NCBI RefSeq assembly: GCF_963675165.1
Contig: NC_087393.1
Span: 1,451,002 to 1,515,001 of the forward strand
Direction: 5' to 3'
Source of the DNA: Halichondria panicea
Lineage: Eukaryota; Porifera; Demospongiae; Suberitida; Halichondriidae
Length of the DNA: 64,000 bases
Shown here: positions 40,401 through 63,796 of the stretch, in pieces
Numbering within the stretch: position 1 is the stretch's first letter
Layout: every line of letters starts with the position of its first letter
The notes under the pieces: model-generated
Told to the model about the DNA's origin: nothing
Database searches by the model: none
What the model saw: the letters and a program-made list of their open reading frames with translations, nothing else
Program-made: the position numbers and the translations under genes

Positions 40401-41311
40401 TCAATTACGCAAGCCCTGCCTGAAACAGCCCCTGGGCCAATGATAAACACTCGTGAGATCATTCCATGTATACAGGAGTCTGTAATTATATTATGTAGCC
40501 CTCAAAATTGATGTTGGTTTTGTTCTTGTGTCAGAGCTACTGCCTAGCAGTTTTGTCTTCATGTGCTTGTACATTTCATATATACTATTATGTGCAGTTG
40601 AATGAGCTCTTCAAAAAGTACGCAGTCAAGTACCCTGCCTTGGGGCTGACAGTAGAGGAACTGAAGAAGTTTCTCATGGAGGAGTGTTTTGTGAGTACTG
40701 TTCTGTAATTCCCTTGGTGGATGGATGGATATGGATCAATGTGTACCTTTTGAGTATAATTTGTAGTATGTGGGCATACAACGACACTTGGGGTGTCTAG
40801 CACAGTTGTATATAGGTCATGCTCTATATGCCTCAAAGTGTTCGTAGTACATATATAATATTATACATTTCGACTTGTGTCAGCTAGCAGGCCACCTCTT
40901 TATTAAGGTCACTGTTAATTTTCCCAAAGTGATCGATTGCTTCTAATGACCTGCTATGTGCACATGTTTCACTGCAGTGGGATAATGCTCAGGCGTCCGA
41001 CAACAGCTTACAGTCCCTTATCAATCATCATGACTACCATCATCGTGCCTACAAGAAGTACGTGGCCAAGAACAGACCACTCCAGTACCAAATCGCCACC
41101 AAGCTCCTCTCCTATGCCGGCTTTCTCAGGTAGGTGACATAATTTTTGTGCTTAATTACAATAATGGCTTATTATTCAGTTTCCTGAGGAGTAAAGATAA
41201 CGCTGCAATTGACTTGGATCACGAGACATTGTATCAGGTGATTAACGTACACCTCTATCTGTATATACACATGTACACTAGCTGTAATTATCGACTCGAT
41301 ACCTAGGTCCC

Positions 41312-41404
<93 letters not shown>

Positions 41405-41424
41405 CACACACACACACAACACAC

Positions 41425-41479
<55 letters not shown>

Positions 41480-41585
41480 CACACACACACACACAACACA
41501 CAACACACACACACACACACACACACATACACACACACACACACGCGTGCGCACACGCACACAACACACACACACACACGCACAC

Positions 41586-41650
<65 letters not shown>

Positions 41651-44600
41651 CACACATACTCACCTCCAGCTTCAATATAACTCTGTGCTAATGATTTTCC
41701 AGATTCTTGAGCCTCACTCCTTCCCTCTACACAGGCCCACCCTTCCACACATCACTAACCTAACCCCTCCCACACACACACTCCCCACAGGACATGAATC
41801 AGCCGCTCTCACACTACTTCATAAACTCCTCCCACAATACGTACCTGGAGGCAGACCAGCTCAAGGGCAAGTCCTCATTGGACGCTTACATACGAGCACT
41901 GCTGCAGGGGTGTCGCTGTATTGAGATTGACTGCTGGGATGACAGTGAGTGTAGCAGTCATAAAGCTAAAGTTTCTGAGAGCCTGGGTCTAAAATAGCCA
42001 ATCGATCTTAATTGCTAGATTTCATGTCTTGATAGTTTCTTTTATTCTTACGGTGTCGTATCAAAGATCGCTAAGTATTACTGTGGAGCTTCTGAAGTAC
42101 ATGTATAGAACAATTTGGTAGCAGACTTTGTCGTTTTTTGACAAATGACCCTGAATCCACTGGTACTACATTGTGACTATTTTCCATGCATCTTTATCCC
42201 AGCATTTAATGTGACTGGACTGGACAGAAAAGAGCCAGTCATCTACCATGGCTACACTCTGACCTCAAAGCTACCGTTCAGAGAGGTCATCCACACCATT
42301 AAGGTAAGGACTGACAATACAGCTACTAACACTGTGTACATGTAGCTAGACAAGTCTACATCTGGGCCAGCAGGACGTGGATATTTTCGTGTATTAACAT
42401 TTATTATGTACTGGACACGTGTATATATTCTGTATATCCACACACACACACACACAGGACTATGCCTTTCGGACATCCCTCTACCCAGTGATCATCTCCA
42501 TTGAGAACCACTGCTCGGAAGATCAACAGTCAAAGATGGCCAAGATATTTCGTGCAATCATGGGAGACTTGCTCCCCTCCGAGAACCTGGTGGAGAGTGA
42601 GGCACGGGAGAGACTACCCTCCCCACAAGACCTGCAGGGGAAGATACTTCTCAAGGGGTCCTTCAAGGCTGGAGAGGTGAGTGCACTTAAGGAACCGACA
42701 ATGTTATAGCCGGAAAAGCTTATTTGCAATGCATGGTCCATCAGTATGAGGATTATAGTAATTGTGGACTTTTCTGATTTATACAGCTCAAGTATGGCAC
42801 TGCTCCCAGAACGCCCAAAATGGTAAGTCTCGTACAAAGCATGTCATATGTATCTCACACACATTCACCCACGCCTTTGATCCCACCCCACAGAGCAAGG
42901 AAACGTCTCAAGCCTCCCTCTCTTCGTTACAGGCCAATGCTGTGGCCAACCCTGCTAGACTAACATCCATGCAGAGCTCCACTTCAGTGCTGTCTACTAA
43001 CTCCATTGAGGTGAGCACACAACCTGTACAGTTCTTATCTATTGACTTGTGTTCCAAATTTATATGTCTATTATTATTGCACTAGCTGCTCAAAACGTGA
43101 CTATTTATGACAAATTGCAAATGTTCTAACTTGCCCACCACCATATGCACACATGCAGAATGAACTGCCCGAGTCTCCGGGCTCACCCGACATGAACCAT
43201 GTCAAGGCCCCGCCCACCTCTGAAGAGGTTGACGCGGGACGCAGCAGAGGGCACAGTTTTGGCAGGGGAAGGGAGAGCCGGAGATCAGTGAGTGTGGTTT
43301 TGGAGCAGTGTACAGTACTTGCATATTAGACTGTAGTCATTTCATACATTATATCGTATAATGTGCTATTAGTGACTGGAGAGTGTACATGCAGCAACTA
43401 ATCCCGTATCACATCCGTTCCAGTAATTGCACGTCGTCATTGACAGTGTGCAATTACATTTTTTTGTACCTGTCAAGTAATTGCATGCTGTCAATGACAA
43501 CGTATTGTTTTCGAATAACGGCCGCGGCTATAAAACTGCGGAAAACTTCATCATACATGACCATACTAATCCTTGAGTCACCTATTTATAATTATGTGTA
43601 TACATGTGCTGCTCATTGACAAGTGTCTCTGGCTGTAGTTAGTGTAATTCCCAATGCCATATACTATACATTTGTCAAATAGAAAACCTCCAAATCACAC
43701 AAACACACATACCACACACCCTCACACCACACAGCTCCGAGAGGTGAAACACCTTGTAGTAGAGAATGAAATGGGACAAGACGACCAGGAGCTCTTGTAT
43801 GAAGAGACGAGTAAGGGCTTGAAGAAGCTGATCGTTTATTGTCGCTCCATCTCTATCAAGCCTTGGAGCTGGAGGAAACAGAAGGCAACTTCCGTCTCTG
43901 AGATGTTCTCATTTGGAGAGCCCTTGGCAATCAAGCTCTGTGACAAGTCACAGCGAGGTGAGTGGCACCAGTAGACACAGAATTTTATCAAAGTAGGTTT
44001 GATGTGCAATGAAAATAAGCAAGTGTAGCCATGTGCAGTACTGCATCTCACATGTTCAGTATTTAACTCGAAAAAAACTTACTAGTGTATTTTCGTACTG
44101 TGTTAGAAGGAATTCCCCACCCCAACACACACCATCAGACATGTTGAAATGCACCGAGCGTCAGCTGGTGCGTACATACCCCAAGGGGAGCAGGTTCGAC
44201 TCTAGTAACTACGACCCCGTCATGATGTGGAACTGTGGTATTCAATTGGTCGCTCTCAATTTCCAGAAACCTGACCTTTGCATGCATCTCAACCAAGGTG
44301 GGCATGCATCCACGGTCTCGTTGTGTGATGTACATACAGTGTATAATACCAAGGGCGTATACAGAGAAGAGGGCATGCAACTCGCCCTATTCTCAGAATC
44401 ATCCGACTTCGTATTGAGCTATTTTTAGAACTGCCCACAAAAACGCCCACGCGTAACCTTTGACCGCACAAGGTAAATCAAAGTTTTTTTTATATCTGTA
44501 TAAGCTAGCTCGATTGCAGCATAGTAAAACTAGTTCTCAGCAGTATGGCTCGTACTAGCAGTGTCAAAGGCAAAGGCAAACCATCCAACAGTTGCAACTC

Positions 44601-48166: not shown

Positions 48167-48553
48167 TCACTGTGAGGTTTTTGCCGGTCTGCCAGGTGCG
48201 TACACTTGTTTCCTTGGTCTCCCACCAACTTTGCGAGTGCTCTCACTTGAACAAACTGAGCAATTTATATCACTGTGTGCAGACCATGTTGCAATCACTT
48301 TCATTGGGTTGTATTTTCTCCCGTCTCTTGCTTTTTTGAAGGTATGATAAATTATGTTGTTGCATGGGGGACAATATAATTGGGGATGAATTGCTTCCAC
48401 GTCTTCGTTGATGTCTATCCCAAAAACCTCCAAGAGAGCAACTTTTCTGTCCGAGCAGGAACGCCTACAACCTTGAGGGCCTTTCTTGTTCCTGAAAGGA
48501 GATCCGCACACCCGACAGTGATGGGAGAGTGCAACAAGGTGCTCTTCACTCAT
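48167..48553 (-). CDS. RAG1 N-terminal-like zinc-binding protein
   Basis: A 128-residue ORF starting MSEEHLVALSHHCRVCG. Pairs of cysteines in CRVCG, CRRSC, YCPPC and CSVCS, plus His in IHP and WSAH, follow the order seen in the N-terminal zinc-binding region of vertebrate RAG1 (CRICG..., F.ID...DV..IHP, C..C, then W..H....C..C). Family knowledge: this region lies upstream of the catalytic core and also exists as separate 'N-RAG' proteins in some invertebrate mobile elements. No RAG1 core, RAG2 or transposase is next to it. The tail GGRPRKQ...GRPAK is AT-hook-like. An acceptor-like CAG directly before the ATG hints at an upstream non-coding or short coding exon. It lies between PLC and cytohesin. 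Whether it is an active gene or a mobile-element relic is open. Confidence 0.7.
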   Translation of the reverse strand: MSEEHLVALSHHCRVCGSPFRNKKGPQGCRRSCSDRKVALLEVFGIDINEDVEAIHPQLYCPPCNNIIYHTFKKARDGRKYNPMKVIATWSAHSDINCSVCSSESTRKVGGRPRKQVYAPGRPAKTSQ

Positions 48554-48980
48554 TCCTGAATGTATATAGACTCTACTATTGAGTACAAAGTCAATGTACG
48601 TACATATGTACACGTACACGTATGTTTAGTTCTATTTTTCAGGTCAATTTTCCTTCCCAATTTTTGAAAATTGGGACCTATTAATAAAAATAAAAAGTAC
48701 CTTTTAAAATAGTAGCTTTACAGCAAGAACAGGCATGCACTTCCTTTGAAACTTCCAGCTGTCAGTGTCAGATTTAGATGTCAACCGAGCTAGGTCAAAA
48801 CATCTGCAGTTTCCAGGTGCGCATGCGCACACGCAGCCAGAATTAATTGTCAACCTTCAAAATCCCTCCCCCTAGCTTGTGAGGTCACACCCTTATCTTA
48901 ATTTATTGCCTTAGAGATGATGTAATTTCAGACCACAACTTTTATATTATTACTGTACGTAGCTAGAATCTTTTTTTGTG
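48554..48980. promoter_or_regulatory. Divergent gap, RAG1-N-like ORF/cytohesin
   Basis: 427 bp with no exon. A short inverted repeat (CCAATTTTTGAAAATTGG, 48657-48674) and a GTGCGCATGCGCAC palindrome near 48817-48830 are visible; the latter resembles an NRF-1-type site, a common metazoan promoter element. Confidence 0.45.
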
Positions 48981-51900
48981 ATGGCCTCTGAACAGTTGAC
49001 TAGATCAGCAGAAGAAGATAAGCTTCTCAAAGATATCAGAGACGAGAAGGAAAAGTTGTGGTTGGAAATACAGGTAGAGCCAATATTAATAGTATGCCAC
49101 CATGTCTTTAATATTTTATAGCTAATACCATTGACCTAGTTAGATTAGTTAGTGTGACTGGTTGTGTGTGCCATACAGGAGCTAAGACGACAGGTGATTG
49201 ATATCGACAATGAGCTAGCCGCCCTGGATGAGGCAAATGATGAGTAAGTGTATTAAATAGTCATATCTATCTATACCTACTCAATTATCGGCAGTAGCTA
49301 GTTAAACATTGCCACTCTGTCTGTGTAGAGAGATCAGACAAGAGAAAGAGAAGATGAGGATCATCAGAAATGGCAGGAACAAGTTCAACGCAAAACCGAA
49401 AGACGTAAGTATTTAATGTACCTACAGATGTGTAATGATCATCTACGGCCGGCTCAGACCATACACTCACCCCCTATAAGCTATAAGCATGTTCTTGTAC
49501 AATAGCGATTATTCTCACTAAAGTCTAAAACAACATGAATGTGCTCTTGTATAATTGTAGTTGTGAAGACAATAAGAACTGAACAACATTATGTTTGTCT
49601 GTATATACCCCCAGGGCATAAAGTTCCTACAGTCCAACAATGTCCTGGGGGAATCCTCCAAGGAGATTGCCGAGTACCTGATGAAGGGAGAGCTACTCAA
49701 CAAGAGGGCCATTGGAGACTACCTGGGAGAGGGGTGAGTGGTTCTTGTCGTGGTGGAATAAAGTATCATTCAGTATTGTGCACAGTCCATGTATAATGGT
49801 CATAAGATCATTAACTAAAGATGGATTCTGTATGGGATACCATTGTTGTTGTTTTTACTCATTTGACAGTTAGGTACAGTACTACTTGTATAGCATTCTA
49901 TCCTAATTGGTAAGTGTACACATTACAATGTGCCCACAAAAAAACAATTAAGCTCCCAGCCAAAGTCTATCGTAATCAATGTATAGAAGTTACCTGCCAG
50001 GTTTCTTAATGGCACAACTATTCGATTCCATTAATTGGCTCTAGTCTGTGTAATACTATTATGTTCATGTACGTAATTGTGTTTGTTGCTCTCCACTGCA
50101 GGAAGGACTTCAACATTGAGGTGTTAAAGAGTTTTATTGACCAACATGACTTTGTAGGGAAGTCTCTAGTGGAGGCAATCAGGTGAGCTAGAACCAAACT
50201 CCATCTTTTGAACCATTTCAGAAAATAAAGCATATTTGTATCAAGAATGTGTCCACAACTGGTCGGTTGTGGTTGGTACGAGCCACCTCTAGACAAAAAT
50301 AACCACCACTATAGACAAAACTCTTAAGCCTCGTTTACCACAAAATAGTCTAAAAGGCAAAGTGTGTGTTGAATCATAGATTGAAGAGTTAGAGGGATAG
50401 GAAACGGTTTGTATCTCGAGTAACATCCGCGCTACGCTGCGGTTTAATCAAGGCCATCACAACAATATCTATTTCTACACTCAGTGCATAATAAACTACA
50501 AGTAACTGTGCTTAGTCCGTGCAACTCACTTATATTTCAAGGTCTATACCTATTGTAGTAGTCATAACCAGCACGCTTACACGTTATATGTTCCAATAGC
50601 TCTAAAACAGCCTTGGGAACATATAACTTTATTGGAAAGTCTCTTTTTACTGGGTGTGGTCAGACATTAGCAAGTACTACACGTGGCTCATGGACTAGGC
50701 GTGTTATAAATTGCTGAAAGAGATGATGTCTCGAGGAAACACAGCTTTGGGAGTTACCCGGCAAAAATGTGCTTAATAGCCTCGTAACGCGGATATTTTT
50801 CGAGGCTCCACTGCAGATTCAATGTAAAATCATCACGTGCACCACTCCGTTTCCTATCCCTCTAACTCTTCAATCTATGGTTGAATTGAGATTGAGGATT
50901 GAAAATTGTTACCACCTTTTTGAAAAATGGGTACATCCAGGGTGTCATACAGGATTTTGAAGTAGAGGGGGGAATAAGAAAAGTAACTAGAAAATTTTGC
51001 TAAAAAAAGGTACCTGAATGCAAATTTTAGGGGGGGGGGTATCCCCCTTTTCCCCTGTATGACACCCTGACATCATTGCATAGTGTATTGCTAGCAAAAA
51101 CAGTAACAGTACATTTGGTCTATTGATCTAAGCATACAATAGGACTTCGTAAGAGCTACAAACTATTTTAAAGTGGGTTCTCTAGACTCGTTATGATCGT
51201 TCAATGCCCTTGTATGTTCTGTTTTATACCAGAGCCTTTCTGTGGAGCTTCCATCTCCCTGGAGAGGCACAAAAGATCGACAGAATAATGGAACTATTTG
51301 CCAAGCGCTATCTTTCCTGCAACCCAGGGCTTGCTCTTGACAACACAGGTGAGTGAGAGTGGTCAGATAATGGGCAGGGTTTCATACAAGATTTGTTGCT
51401 GGGAGGGGGAAAGGTTTAATTCAGGGGGGTCTGGAGGTCGTTCCCCGGAAAAAAATGTTATCTATTTCGAGGAGAAAAATGACATTTGACTCGAGGTATG
51501 ACTAACTAGGCACTTTAATGCCAGCCTCTGACAAACTTTAGCCTCTTTCTCCATTAAATTAGCCAGCAATAAGTTGTGTCCCGTTAGCTACATGACATTG
51601 TACGATTGTGTTTATTTGCACCTTACATGTAGTTGCATGTCCATTGATTTCTCTACTCCACCTGCAGACACTGCGTATGTCCTCTCCTATGCAATCATCA
51701 TGCTGCATACGAGCATCTACAATCCGAGTGTAAGGGACAAACCCACTCCAGAGCAGTTTGTGAAAATGAACAGAGGTATCAACAATGGGAGCGACCTACC
51801 ACGAGAGTTTCTGGAGGTAAGGGACTTAGGTGTTAATTAATACAGGTTCTGCTGTGTCAGTATGTATATCACCTATTGGCTTGTACGATCAAAACATGTT

Positions 51901-53493
51901 GTGTTTTTGTGAGTTCAAAATTCCTTGTGATTACATGTCATTGTATAAACTAGGTTTGCACCTAAACTTCAAAAGATATGCAACAAACTGTGAAAAAATT
52001 GTAAAAAAAAAAATCTACTCTCTTTGGTTGTTGCACTATAAAAGATTGTGGTTTTGATTTTTGTTGTTACATACATGTACACATGTAACTAGCCTATAAT
52101 ACCCGTTATTGATGGAATAGATAAATTATTGGTTTATACTTTCCTCCCACTTATACCTCTACTCTCTACCCCACACCAGACCCTAGCAATGTGATCTAGA
52201 AGCCCCAGGCACTAGTCATGTACAGAAGTCCGTTTGTGCTAGTTTAAACTCTACTACAATGTTTATAACCATGCACTATAATCATATATGTCTCCCCTCT
52301 CTACACACACACACACAGGACTTGTACGAGCAGGTAAAGAAGGAGGAATTCAAGGTTCCTGATGGTGAGGGTGGTCTGGCAGAGACATTCTTTAACCCCG
52401 AGAGAGAGGGTTGGCTAATGAAGGAGGGGGGCAAGTACAAGTCCAAACACAAACGCTGGTTCATCCTCAAGGAACGCATGCTCTACTACTTCAAGCAGGC
52501 TAATGTATGTACACGTATAATTTAATGATAACACTGTTGATGATGGGGGTGCATTAAATTGTTACGTATGTTGTAGCGACATTATTCGTACATGAAGTTT
52601 CCTTTCAGGCCATGTTTTTCAGACTGTAGCAGGACAATGCATCACTTAATCGTGAAACTCTTTGGAGGTCACTAGATACACGTAAATGTATATTTTAGAC
52701 AGCATCATCATCGAGAAACATAACGTACAACTGTTGTCTAATGAATGACTTTTGTGTCTATTACAGGATGATGATTTGATTGGCAGTATTCCATTAATGG
52801 AGCCCCACCTCAAAGTGAGACTAGTCACTGACCCAAAGTTTCCTCCTCACTGTTTCGAGATTTACTCAGAGGATGGTGTCATCAAAGCGTGGAAGAAAGA
52901 CTCGGATGGGAAACCAGTACCAGGTGTGTAGTGTGGTGTGTGTTGCCGTGTACTGTGTCTCAATGGATGTGAGGGAGTGTAGTATGTGATTGGATGTGGT
53001 GTAGTTCCTTTATAGCTTATTATCATACGTAGCTGCATGTGTACTGTTACAACTGTACGTACATGCATGTATCAATATTATTATCAATCGAGACGAATGT
53101 TGATATACTCTACCATTATAATAATTATTATGGTGACCTAGAAACCCCTCCCCCTCCACACAAACATGCTAGAACAATTATACAGCTAGCTATGAAAGAT
53201 CTCCTTAGAAATGCGTATTTGATTGGGTGTGTGTGCCAGATTTTTGATCGACACTGGTATCAGACATCCCTATATAATAATTATTTATGAATTAATTATA
53301 CCCTCTTTTCAAACACACACGGCTAGGGAACCACGAGTTCTACCGTTTGCAGACTGGTGGTCCAGAGGAAGCTGAGTCGTGGGTGCGGTGTATCGAGGCC
53401 AGTATAGGACAGGACTCTGCCTATGACGCCTTTCAGCAGCGTAAGAGAAGGATCACCTGCGTAACAGGGTTAGAGTTGCCGGGGTTCGACTGA
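48981..53493 (+). CDS. CYTH: Cytohesin, ARF guanine-nucleotide exchange factor
   Basis: Activates ARF GTPases at phosphoinositide-bearing membranes. Ten exons: 48981-49073, 49179-49243, 49329-49404, 49615-49733, 50102-50182, 51233-51348, 51668-51816, 52319-52504, 52767-52923, 53327-53493. Total 1209 bp, 402 residues, the usual cytohesin length. Domain order: N-terminal coiled coil (1-60), Sec7 (~65-250), PH (~265-380) and a short polybasic tail (QQRKRRIT). The catalytic glutamate is in [12 protein letters not shown]. Motif 2 reads [16 protein letters not shown], where cytohesins usually have MLNTSLHNP; the second Asn is kept, the first is His. The PH domain begins [20 protein letters not shown]. 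Intron 5 holds two MITEs. Confidence 0.95.
50375..50879. mobile_element. MITE with perfect 33-bp TIR and 7-bp target duplication
   Basis: CATAGATTGAAGAGTTAGAG... (50375-50407) mirrors 50847-50879 exactly. GTTGAAT flanks both sides (50368-50374 and 50880-50886). No ORF. Internal parts are shared with 22536-22612 and 23216-23330, and in reverse near 57278. Confidence 0.92.
50939..51068. mobile_element. Short MITE with AGGGTGTCATACAGG ends
   Basis: Perfect 15-bp inverted ends around a G-rich 100-bp core. A second member is at 56990-57206, and a decayed left part (GGGTTTCATACAAG) at 51376 onward. Confidence 0.85.
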
Positions 53494-61440: not shown

Positions 61441-62394
61441 ATGTCAATGTCGCAGTTACACCTTCTACCAGCCGGTGCTCCAGAACTAGTTCGAAGCAAT
61501 CAGAAGGACAGATTCTACATTGACCGCATCTCGGCACTCCTCTCTGAAATATCACGACAGCTGCTCCCTCTTCGATCCTGGATAAAATGGCAGAGAGAGC
61601 TCCACCTACTCACTGAGCTCGGTTACTATGGACTCACCACCCTCCTCGATAACCAGACCTTAGGAGAAGAGTATACAAACACCATACAGGTTAAATCGCA
61701 CATCGAGGGAACTTCTACTCAACCTTTGTACACTCCAGCTGGTTTGGTATCGCGAACATTGGCCATACTCTTACAAACTGTGGGGCCTTATATTATTGAG
61801 CGTGCATTGGAGGAAATATACAAGAGACTTAATGAGCGCAGTCTGGATTCCCTAAATGTAACGGAACAACAGTACCAGGTTTTGGAAAAGACTGTAGAAT
61901 TTCTTGAAGAACTCGTGTCAACGTTTAACAAACTCCACTTGTCTTTGTTCTATCTTAGAGGTATTTTCTACCATTTTGGAAAGAGATTCACTGGTATTAA
62001 CTACGTAATGGTTCGATACAAAACCACCACCCTAGCAGATGTTACTGCATCGCGGAATACTTACTGTATTCTCAGCTGGATCATCTTTGCTCAAATAGCA
62101 TTCAGAGTGTTGAAATGGATCTGGGACTATTTCAAATCAAGAACAAAGAAAACAACTCACTCAACAGTAAATCGGATACAAGAAGAGTCGCAAAGAGATG
62201 ATATTATGGTGTCTACGAGTTTGAAATGTCCGCTGTGTCTGGAGATGTGTGAAGCACCGACGACTACTCTTTGTGGTCACGTGTTTTGCTGGGACTGTGT
62301 GTGTGAGTGGGTTAGTGAAAACATAGCATGTCCAGTGTGTAGATGTAGCGTTGAGCCTCAGCAATTGGTCTGTTTACAGCACTTTGAGAGCTAA
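61441..62394 (+). CDS. PEX10: PEX10, peroxisomal E3 ubiquitin ligase
   Basis: PEX10, with PEX2 and PEX12, forms the retrotranslocation channel that ubiquitinates and recycles the import receptor PEX5. A single 954-bp exon encodes 317 residues. The N-terminal half carries the Pex2/Pex10/Pex12 region: PAGAPELVRSNQKDRFYI, ELGYYGLTTLLDNQTLGEEY and the FYLRGIFYHFGKRFTGINYV block near residue 175. Hydrophobic helices follow (residues ~205-225, ILSWIIFAQIAFRVL). The C-terminal RING is C3HC4: CPLC, C, CGHVFCWDC, CPVC, residues ~261-302. The gene is intronless, unlike every other complete gene here, which could reflect intron loss or a retrocopy; it has no poly(A) tract and a full, intact frame. Confidence 0.95.
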   Translation: MSMSQLHLLPAGAPELVRSNQKDRFYIDRISALLSEISRQLLPLRSWIKWQRELHLLTELGYYGLTTLLDNQTLGEEYTNTIQVKSHIEGTSTQPLYTPAGLVSRTLAILLQTVGPYIIERALEEIYKRLNERSLDSLNVTEQQYQVLEKTVEFLEELVSTFNKLHLSLFYLRGIFYHFGKRFTGINYVMVRYKTTTLADVTASRNTYCILSWIIFAQIAFRVLKWIWDYFKSRTKKTTHSTVNRIQEESQRDDIMVSTSLKCPLCLEMCEAPTTTLCGHVFCWDCVCEWVSENIACPVCRCSVEPQQLVCLQHFES

Positions 62395-63796
62395 TATTTA
62401 CTTTCCTTTCTTTGTTTGTGTTATAATTGTACCCAATTTTGGGCAATTTCTTTTGCGTAATAAGATATCGAAATACAGTACACTGTATACGTGTTAGATC
62501 AACCGTCTTCCATCATGCATGCATATCATATAAATATGCATGTGATAATTTTCAAGAAAAAACCAAGCCATTTCAGTGCTAATCATAATGTCATTGAGAT
62601 ATGATAATTTTCGGGGGACAAATATTCGTGGTTCAGCAATTATAATATTAGACATTTCGTGGATAATATTTTCGTGGTTGCTGATTGCATGCAAGGATCT
62701 CCCCCGAATGTTTATTTGTAAACTAGCAAACTAAGGAAAGACTATGCGAACGAGTATTTGAAGCTCATCTTCTAAGACAGCAAAAACTTCAGCATAATTA
62801 TACACTGAACTATAGCCCAACCTCACTTGGAGTATGCAGCTCCAGTCTGGTCTCCACACAAATTGTGGGACATCAGTAAACTAGCAGCAAGGTGGTTAGC
62901 GGCCAAATGGATAGAATACAGTGGGATAAATCATACGAGGAGCTAGTGCAGACAAAATCTTAACTGGTTAAACGTCATGAGTTTATAATCTACTGTTAGA
63001 CGTAATGGACTACCTTCCATTTTACTGTTACAAATACAATGTACTCGTTCGCACAGTACTTTCTTAGTTTGTAAATACTAATGAAAAGGTATATACGCCG
63101 TATAACAGGTTATTTTCGTATGGTGATATTTTTCGTATCAACCTACGAAAATTAAAACTGCGAAAATTTTCTGGCACAATAGGTTCAACGTCACTATCCT
63201 GAGCTGTACAAAGAATGGGTATAGTTCGTATGAAAATTACCTGCTATACATACAGTAATCTAAAATTATAAGCAACATTACTAATTACATATTATAATAA
63301 TAGTGAATAAGTAAAGGCACAGGTAATGAGTTCCATAGGAAAATATTATTAACAAAAAAGGAAAACCTAGTAAATTTATAATTTGTGTTTTGTTTGTGTA
63401 ATGGAAGCATCTTTGTAAGGCAATGTTGCCTATATATATGTGTGACCCTTTCCCCTGTGGATAAACTTATTCAATTCCAATAAACAACAGAAGCGCTAGA
63501 AAGCAAAGGTCATGCAAGAACCTAGAACAAGAATGTTTAATCTTTCATTAAACGTGACACCCTATATTGACCCTAATTTCTCTGCGTTTTGCTCAAACAC
63601 CCGTGAACATTCATACCCACGAATTACGAATTTAATATCACATGCAAAAGGCACTAATGGTCTCATTGACTAAACACATGTCACACGTAAGTAATTCAGT
63701 TATTGTCACTGCGCTAATAAAATGTCAACAAGTGCATGAAGCAATTAAAACTAGCTATAATTATATAAAGATCTATAGTGATCAAGCTATTATTCT
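62395..63796. other. Intergenic with retroelement and MITE remains
   Basis: No intact gene. 62590-62710 has mirrored ATTCGTGGTT/GATAATTTTCGGGGG words of the MITE type; 62812-63044 is a LINE relic; 63094-63252 is a TACCGTATAGCG-type MITE with diverged ends. Confidence 0.6.
62812..63044 (+). pseudogene. LINE reverse-transcriptase C-terminal relic
   Basis: Frame 62812 reads QPHLEYAAPVWSPHKLWDI then AARWLAAKWIEYSG, a stop, LNWLNVMSL, another stop, and VRRNGLPSILLLQIQ. The first block is a hallmark of the thumb region of CR1/L2/Jockey-type reverse transcriptases. Two in-frame stops show it is dead. Confidence 0.7.

Follow-up and report, generated by a model that had tools for sequence, protein, structure and literature searches.

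The frame of 128 codons in the window (the whole stretch of 64,000 nucleotides that was analysed) is very probably the first domain, named Chapa, of an old and doubly truncated copy of a Chapaev-type cut-and-paste transposon, the family being set by published hallmarks. It is most likely a leftover piece and not a new gene. Elsewhere in the genome, copies exist in which terminal repeats enclose the domain together with a RING finger and a Chapaev-type transposase core, so the solo state most likely reflects loss of the rest. Two parts of the original prediction are not supported, namely that the frame is a natural stand-alone unit and that it might be an ancestral partner module of RAG1. A third part, descent from an N-RAG-like mobile element, is borne out. 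The frame itself, with its strand, length, start and stop, lies exactly where it had been placed (see the table).

The RAG1 connection had been proposed from the order of cysteines and histidines and from an F-G-I-D...D-V-E-A-I-H-P core, both of which are present as described. In a Pfam profile search, the 128 residues match the family RAG1_imp_bd with 53.3 bits (E 4.1e-14, for a curated cut-off of 23.3), while the remaining eight families listed for the frame are all under their own cut-offs. A PDB search with the same residues returns RAG1 chains at 1.1e-9 to 5.1e-8. Therefore, the homology with the RAG1 N-terminus is real and well beyond chance, as first thought. A search of NCBIfam gives nothing over cut-off. 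In an alignment of ten copies, C13, C16, C33, H56, C61, C64, H93, C98 and C101 do not vary. The AT-hook-like tail noticed earlier survives as a weak resemblance, but its Pfam score (13.6 bits) stays below the cut-off of 17.4. An RSS heptamer at 48168, at the 3' end of the frame, was taken as chance, with 15 occurrences of the heptamer in the window on both strands together.

The two genes named earlier as flanks, a phospholipase C gene and a cytohesin-type gene, are both recovered by domain matches (PI-PLC-Y, and Sec7 with PH). By reading, the last exon of the former ends at ~47856 and the start codon of the latter lies at ~48981. The claim that no catalytic core lies nearby is likewise upheld: at the locus, tblastn with the transposase of L036 (the full-length element described below) matches only residues 1-126 of this protein, and neither RING nor core is left beside the frame. 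Elsewhere in the window, the same search gives one RING-region match and three matches with E above 2. The RING-region match (62191-62430, E 3.8e-4) probably belongs to an unrelated RING gene. As to terminal repeats, the window holds 14 matches with at most three mismatches versus 15.87 expected by chance. A long CA/TG-type simple repeat at 41250-41690 creates spurious open frames on both strands.

Features of the window around the Chapa frame, with coordinates counted from the first base of the window
Feature	Position	Strand	Evidence
PI-PLC-Y domain exon, flanking phospholipase C gene	44003..44428	+	4.7e-23
Chapa / RAG1 N-terminal zinc domain frame, truncated copy	48167..48553	-	128 codons, ATG to TGA
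3' breakpoint	48173	-	DNA similarity to eight element copies ends at 48173 or at most 8 bases before
Residual 5' leader of the element	48554..48683	-	DNA similarity to other copies
Stretch from the fragment to the cytohesin start	48684..48980	.	at most faint traces of the element 5' end
Sec7 and PH exons, flanking cytohesin-type gene	51532..52525	+	8.2e-18 and 8.2e-7

Both ends of the window copy are gone. On the 3' side, DNA comparison with eight copies places the end of similarity at 48173-48179 in seven of the eight loci and at 48181 in the eighth, and the stop codon of the frame falls two codons beyond the breakpoint. On the 5' side, the reach of similarity depends on the copy compared. 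It extends to 48662 against L031, L032 and L038, to 48683 against L033 (which shows one further, chance-level match at 50019-50084), and only to 48554-48567 against L034, L036, L037 and L040. A 5' terminal repeat was looked for upstream of the fragment and none was found. Alignments of 48684-48990 with four element 5' ends score 17-21, versus shuffle maxima of 21-23, and the scores are reached by 6, 2, 21 and 4 of 200 shuffles for the four copies; as a control, the 5' parts of other copies score 199-289 among themselves. The alignment of the window 5' flank with the element contains a 13-base identical patch, and faint element traces may persist in 48684-48990. The distal 5' flank is kept in copies with more diverged coding sequence and is at most faint in the window copy. 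What is left measures ~500 bp, with terminal repeats and core both missing, and is therefore a fragment, not an element. Having lost its two ends and all sequence beyond the first domain, the piece can no longer move autonomously.

Copies of the domain are numerous in the host genome (131 Mb in 39 contigs). A search with the 128-residue protein gives at least 43 matching stretches; the 33 with E <= 1e-3 were clustered into 29 loci, leaving out 10 weaker ones. At 14 of the 29 domain loci, a transposase core is present on the same strand no more than 6 kb downstream. At the other 15, window locus included, 'no core' stands for none found, because on the core side 85 of 151 candidates were scored (135 stretches, 50 of which were typed, yielding 35 core loci). 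Two of these 15 loci have core sequence at other places, C6:6944084 with a core ~4 kb off on the opposite strand and C14:3892215 with core pieces 6-8 kb off. The closest relative of the window copy is L002, which is the L031 locus, with 77% protein identity. The objection that the frame could be a plain repeat with many near-identical copies thus holds for the number of loci, but not for near-identity, given so distant a nearest relative. Beyond the host, none of 165 pattern matches in viral contigs encodes a relative, and the 28 pattern matches in bacterial and archaeal genomes include one short match (residues 38-74, 37% identity, E 2e-5 as calculated among these candidates alone).

Fourteen longer stretches were taken for the study of whole elements. 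In the longer copies, the Chapa domain precedes a RING finger, another zinc finger and a core that bears Chapaev motifs; the complete copies have CAC...GTG terminal repeats at their borders and are flanked by 4-bp target duplications. L036, the full-length element, has 4450 bp, with ends at oriented positions 1718 and 6167. Its 11 predicted exons join into a frame of 976 amino acids with no internal stop. The splice sites were picked by visual inspection, guided by GT/AG borders and by what other copies show, and hence the exon borders are predictions. The protein runs from a RAG1-like N-terminus through a RING to a core carrying the C(2)C, LH and H(4)H motifs, and no second gene was noticed inside the element in the list of its open frames. 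In Pfam, the protein matches RAG1_imp_bd at 5.3e-11. In its core region, residues 352-550 match DUF1280, a family of unknown function, at 3e-15, so that DUF1280 may derive from Chapaev transposases. In PDB, RAG1 chain residues 152-398 are colinear with L036 through the RING (whole-sequence E 8.4e-8, best stretch 1.2e-5), and RING-type chains match residues ~142-209 weakly (best 0.0017).

The core carries motifs at C585-C588, L652-H653 and H896-H901. Candidate DDE residues, assigned by motif reading, complete the order D496, D566, C585-C588, L652-H653, H896-H901 and E918/E922, which fits the published order of Chapaev motifs. Among nine core-bearing rows, C(2)C is kept in 9/9, LH in 6/9 (missing in L033, L039 and L040) and H(4)H in 8/9 (missing in L034); D496 is found in eight rows, D566 in seven and E918/E922 in all nine. 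L034 has E in place of D496 and R in place of the second H of H(4)H. All rows besides L036 are chained tblastn pieces with noise, so a departure from the motifs may reflect either true damage or an error in the row. The spacing between the second D and the first C is 19 residues, the same as in RAG1. Searched against PDB, the core profile has no RAG1 among its results; its four matches (designed repeat proteins and helical chains, best 1.5e-4) were taken as chance. Functionally, the transposase presumably binds the element ends and moves the element, and the N-terminal zinc and RING part may assist, as in RAG1, with assembly or with ubiquitin transfer.

The proposed genome search for more copies with terminal repeats proved productive. 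CAC...GTG ends with matching 4-bp duplications (GGTT, TTGT, ACAT, ATGA, TAAC, ATGG and CAGC) occur in 7/7 loci with both ends visible, a set taken from the 14 long loci and picked because the ends had already been seen. Ends are incomplete, altered or outside the stretch in L032, L033, L035 and L040, and the count leaves out L039, L043 and L044. Insertion at L031 is documented by two paralogous empty sites on the same contig, L046 and L047, which have a single GGTT versus two at L031. Besides these loci, L048 (C4:4177364-4179093) and L049 (C5:2680558-2682287) are 98.4% identical, internally deleted copies of ~1.53 kb that have kept the Chapa domain's first codons along with parts of the C-terminus. 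L048 has CAC...GTG ends and a 4-bp duplication, AACT; the exact end pattern was searched in L049 and not found.

The length of the duplications bears on whether the frame could be a fragment of a true RAG1-like element with RAG2 (TransibSU / ProtoRAG), a reading that the RAG1 N-terminal homology would suit. It is extremely improbable, since the duplications are 4-bp and not 5-bp in all seven loci, and the Pfam RAG1 core family (PF12940) is unmatched in the host genome, in a search with no positive control. A search of the genome with zf-RAG1 gave nothing either, its controls yielding one match, below cut-off. Kelch ORFs near L031, L032 and L041 (contig C1), considered as possible RAG2 partners, were discarded, as their positions fall beyond the element ends and close to protein-kinase ORFs. 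The ORFs around L032, the one neighbourhood run against Pfam, match Kelch at 8.7e-44 and kinase at 5.7e-37. Together, the Kelch and kinase ORFs near these three loci look like a host gene family.

L031 is the copy that comes closest to a mobile element without a core, with 982 bp and terminal repeats that enclose this domain alone. It has empty sites, and core sequence was not found near 15/29 loci, as would be expected if the window frame were the remnant of an independent mobile module of the N-RAG-TP kind that never had a transposase core. However, over query positions 2-961 of 1025 (the query took in some 3' flank) L031 shows 98% identity to L038, which bears a core, and it has the same ends. 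L031 thus derives by deletion from a core-bearing element, and 14/29 loci do have a core. Descent from such a core-less module is thus very improbable, and a truncated Chapaev copy remains the preferred reading. According to the part of PMC8355894 available, the N-RAG-TP of Aplysia, known here by description, is made entirely of RAG1 N-terminal-like sequence and has been proposed as a RAG1 building block. L031 resembles it as a mobile element of such sequence alone, but derives from a core-bearing element of the same genome. The pair L031/L038, 98% identical, illustrates internal deletion as a way in which an N-RAG element can arise, a simpler route, with the deletion of this type observed in one copy only. 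In the same part of PMC8355894, RAG1 is proposed to have been assembled via fusion of a separate N-RAG transposon with Transib, a proposal on which the Chapa-RING-transposase family bears. The family fits the alternative given in the accessible passages of PMC4411706, in which an older transposon already combined the core with the N-terminal and RING parts.

Domestication was the remaining claim of the original prediction. It would make the frame a solo gene, a 128-residue zinc protein retained by the host and read head-to-head with the cytohesin-type gene; one conceivable role is that of a dimerising decoy that restrains the Chapaev transposase. Several features are compatible with such a role: the frame is open, an acceptor-like block (TTCAG/GAATG) is retained at its start codon, each of the 34 columns that do not vary among the nine other rows is preserved, and dN/dS between the window copy and L031 is 0.326. 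Yet L031, L035 and L036 also keep 34/34 of these columns, and the domain is open in L033 and L034 though their core rows depart from the motifs (L033 being without LH). An eight-row codon model assigns the window branch an omega of 0.44, the highest among the seven branches tested; neither 1 (2dlnL 1.97) nor the common value of 0.22 in the one-ratio model (2.41) can be distinguished from it. The rows are those of the ten-row set minus the near-duplicates L032 and L035, with L038, L040 and L041 outside the ten-row set, and support at the inner nodes of the tree is poor (16, 52, 12 and 44). Furthermore, the 567 bases downstream of the frame contain no AATAAA or ATTAAA; the variants AGTAAA, TATAAA and ACTAAA occur. 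Domestication is thus possible, though quite unlikely. In neutral simulations with assumed indel rates, the frame stays intact with a probability of 0.0009 to 0.03 when the whole branch is neutral and of 0.17 to 0.40 when a quarter of it is neutral. An intact frame is unlikely under a wholly neutral branch, so some constraint is possible. For a doubly truncated transposon copy, an open frame would most likely reflect chance and limited age, not function.

The ends of the elements have a geometry of their own. The genome was searched for the pattern CACCGCTGTTTCA, a gap of 1 to 30 bases and CACTTAGTT, which gives 30 exact matches (nine of 28-29 bases and 21 of 39 bases) versus 0 for the reversed pattern used as control. 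Read as seven terminal bases, a spacer and the nine-base block CACTTAGTT, a split chosen with the RSS in mind, the spacer is 12-13 or 23 in 30/30 matches; the pattern detects well-kept ends only, and the matches represent related copies, no independent events. In each of the six complete core-bearing elements measured (L034, L036, L037, L038, L041 and L042), the spacer has 12-13 bases at the 5' end and 23-24 at the 3' end. L041 and L042, which form a far-diverged subfamily with CACAGGT as terminal bases, have spacers of 13 and 24. The 5' block of L038 is TACTTAGTT. In L031, the 3' block is missing and may have been lost after insertion.

In V(D)J recombination, the 12- and 23-spacer signals differ by about one helical turn. 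The two ends of the Chapaev elements show about the same difference, but the CACTTAGTT block differs from the RSS nonamer. It could be speculated, though this is unlikely, that the Chapaev ends in this animal are a bipartite asymmetric signal, made of a terminal seven-base block beginning with CAC and the CACTTAGTT block, and that a 12/23-like geometry is an old property of the Chapaev-Transib-RAG superfamily, not a late V(D)J invention. No description of such a geometry for Chapaev was found in the literature passages searched, and invertebrate RAGL complexes are expected to respond rather little to asymmetry of the ends, as stated in the accessible portion of PMC7204232. Because of the asymmetric spacing, the origin of the 12/23 arrangement can be tested across other Chapaev families. 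The family around the window frame and the geometry of its ends are worth specialist attention.

The elements described here are another member of an already known Chapaev kind, and the earlier interpretation was too generous. Chapaev hallmarks are duplications of 3-4 bp, CAC/GTG termini, and C(2)C, LH and H(4)H motifs (PMC4079192, in the part consulted), and some subgroups carry a RAG1-type Chapa domain plus RING (PMC4411706, likewise in part). The same features occur here, with Chapa, RING, core, CAC...GTG ends, 4-bp duplications and the three motifs, but the window copy retains the Chapa domain only. A literature search for Chapaev in sponges found no report in the passages covered; co-mentions exist, and absence is not claimed. 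The family exposed by the frame, a Chapa-RING-transposase element in an animal genome, is more useful than the frame itself, which is most likely a fossil fragment. The vertebrate RAG1 N-terminal region is homologous over the zinc domain and, in L036, also through the RING. In contrast, the window locus has no RAG1 core, and kinship of the cores is undetected by sequence and distant according to the literature. Transib, TransibSU and ProtoRAG are related at the level of the superfamily, as far as the available part of PMC4411706 describes it, and are set apart by their 5-bp duplications, compared with 4 bp here.
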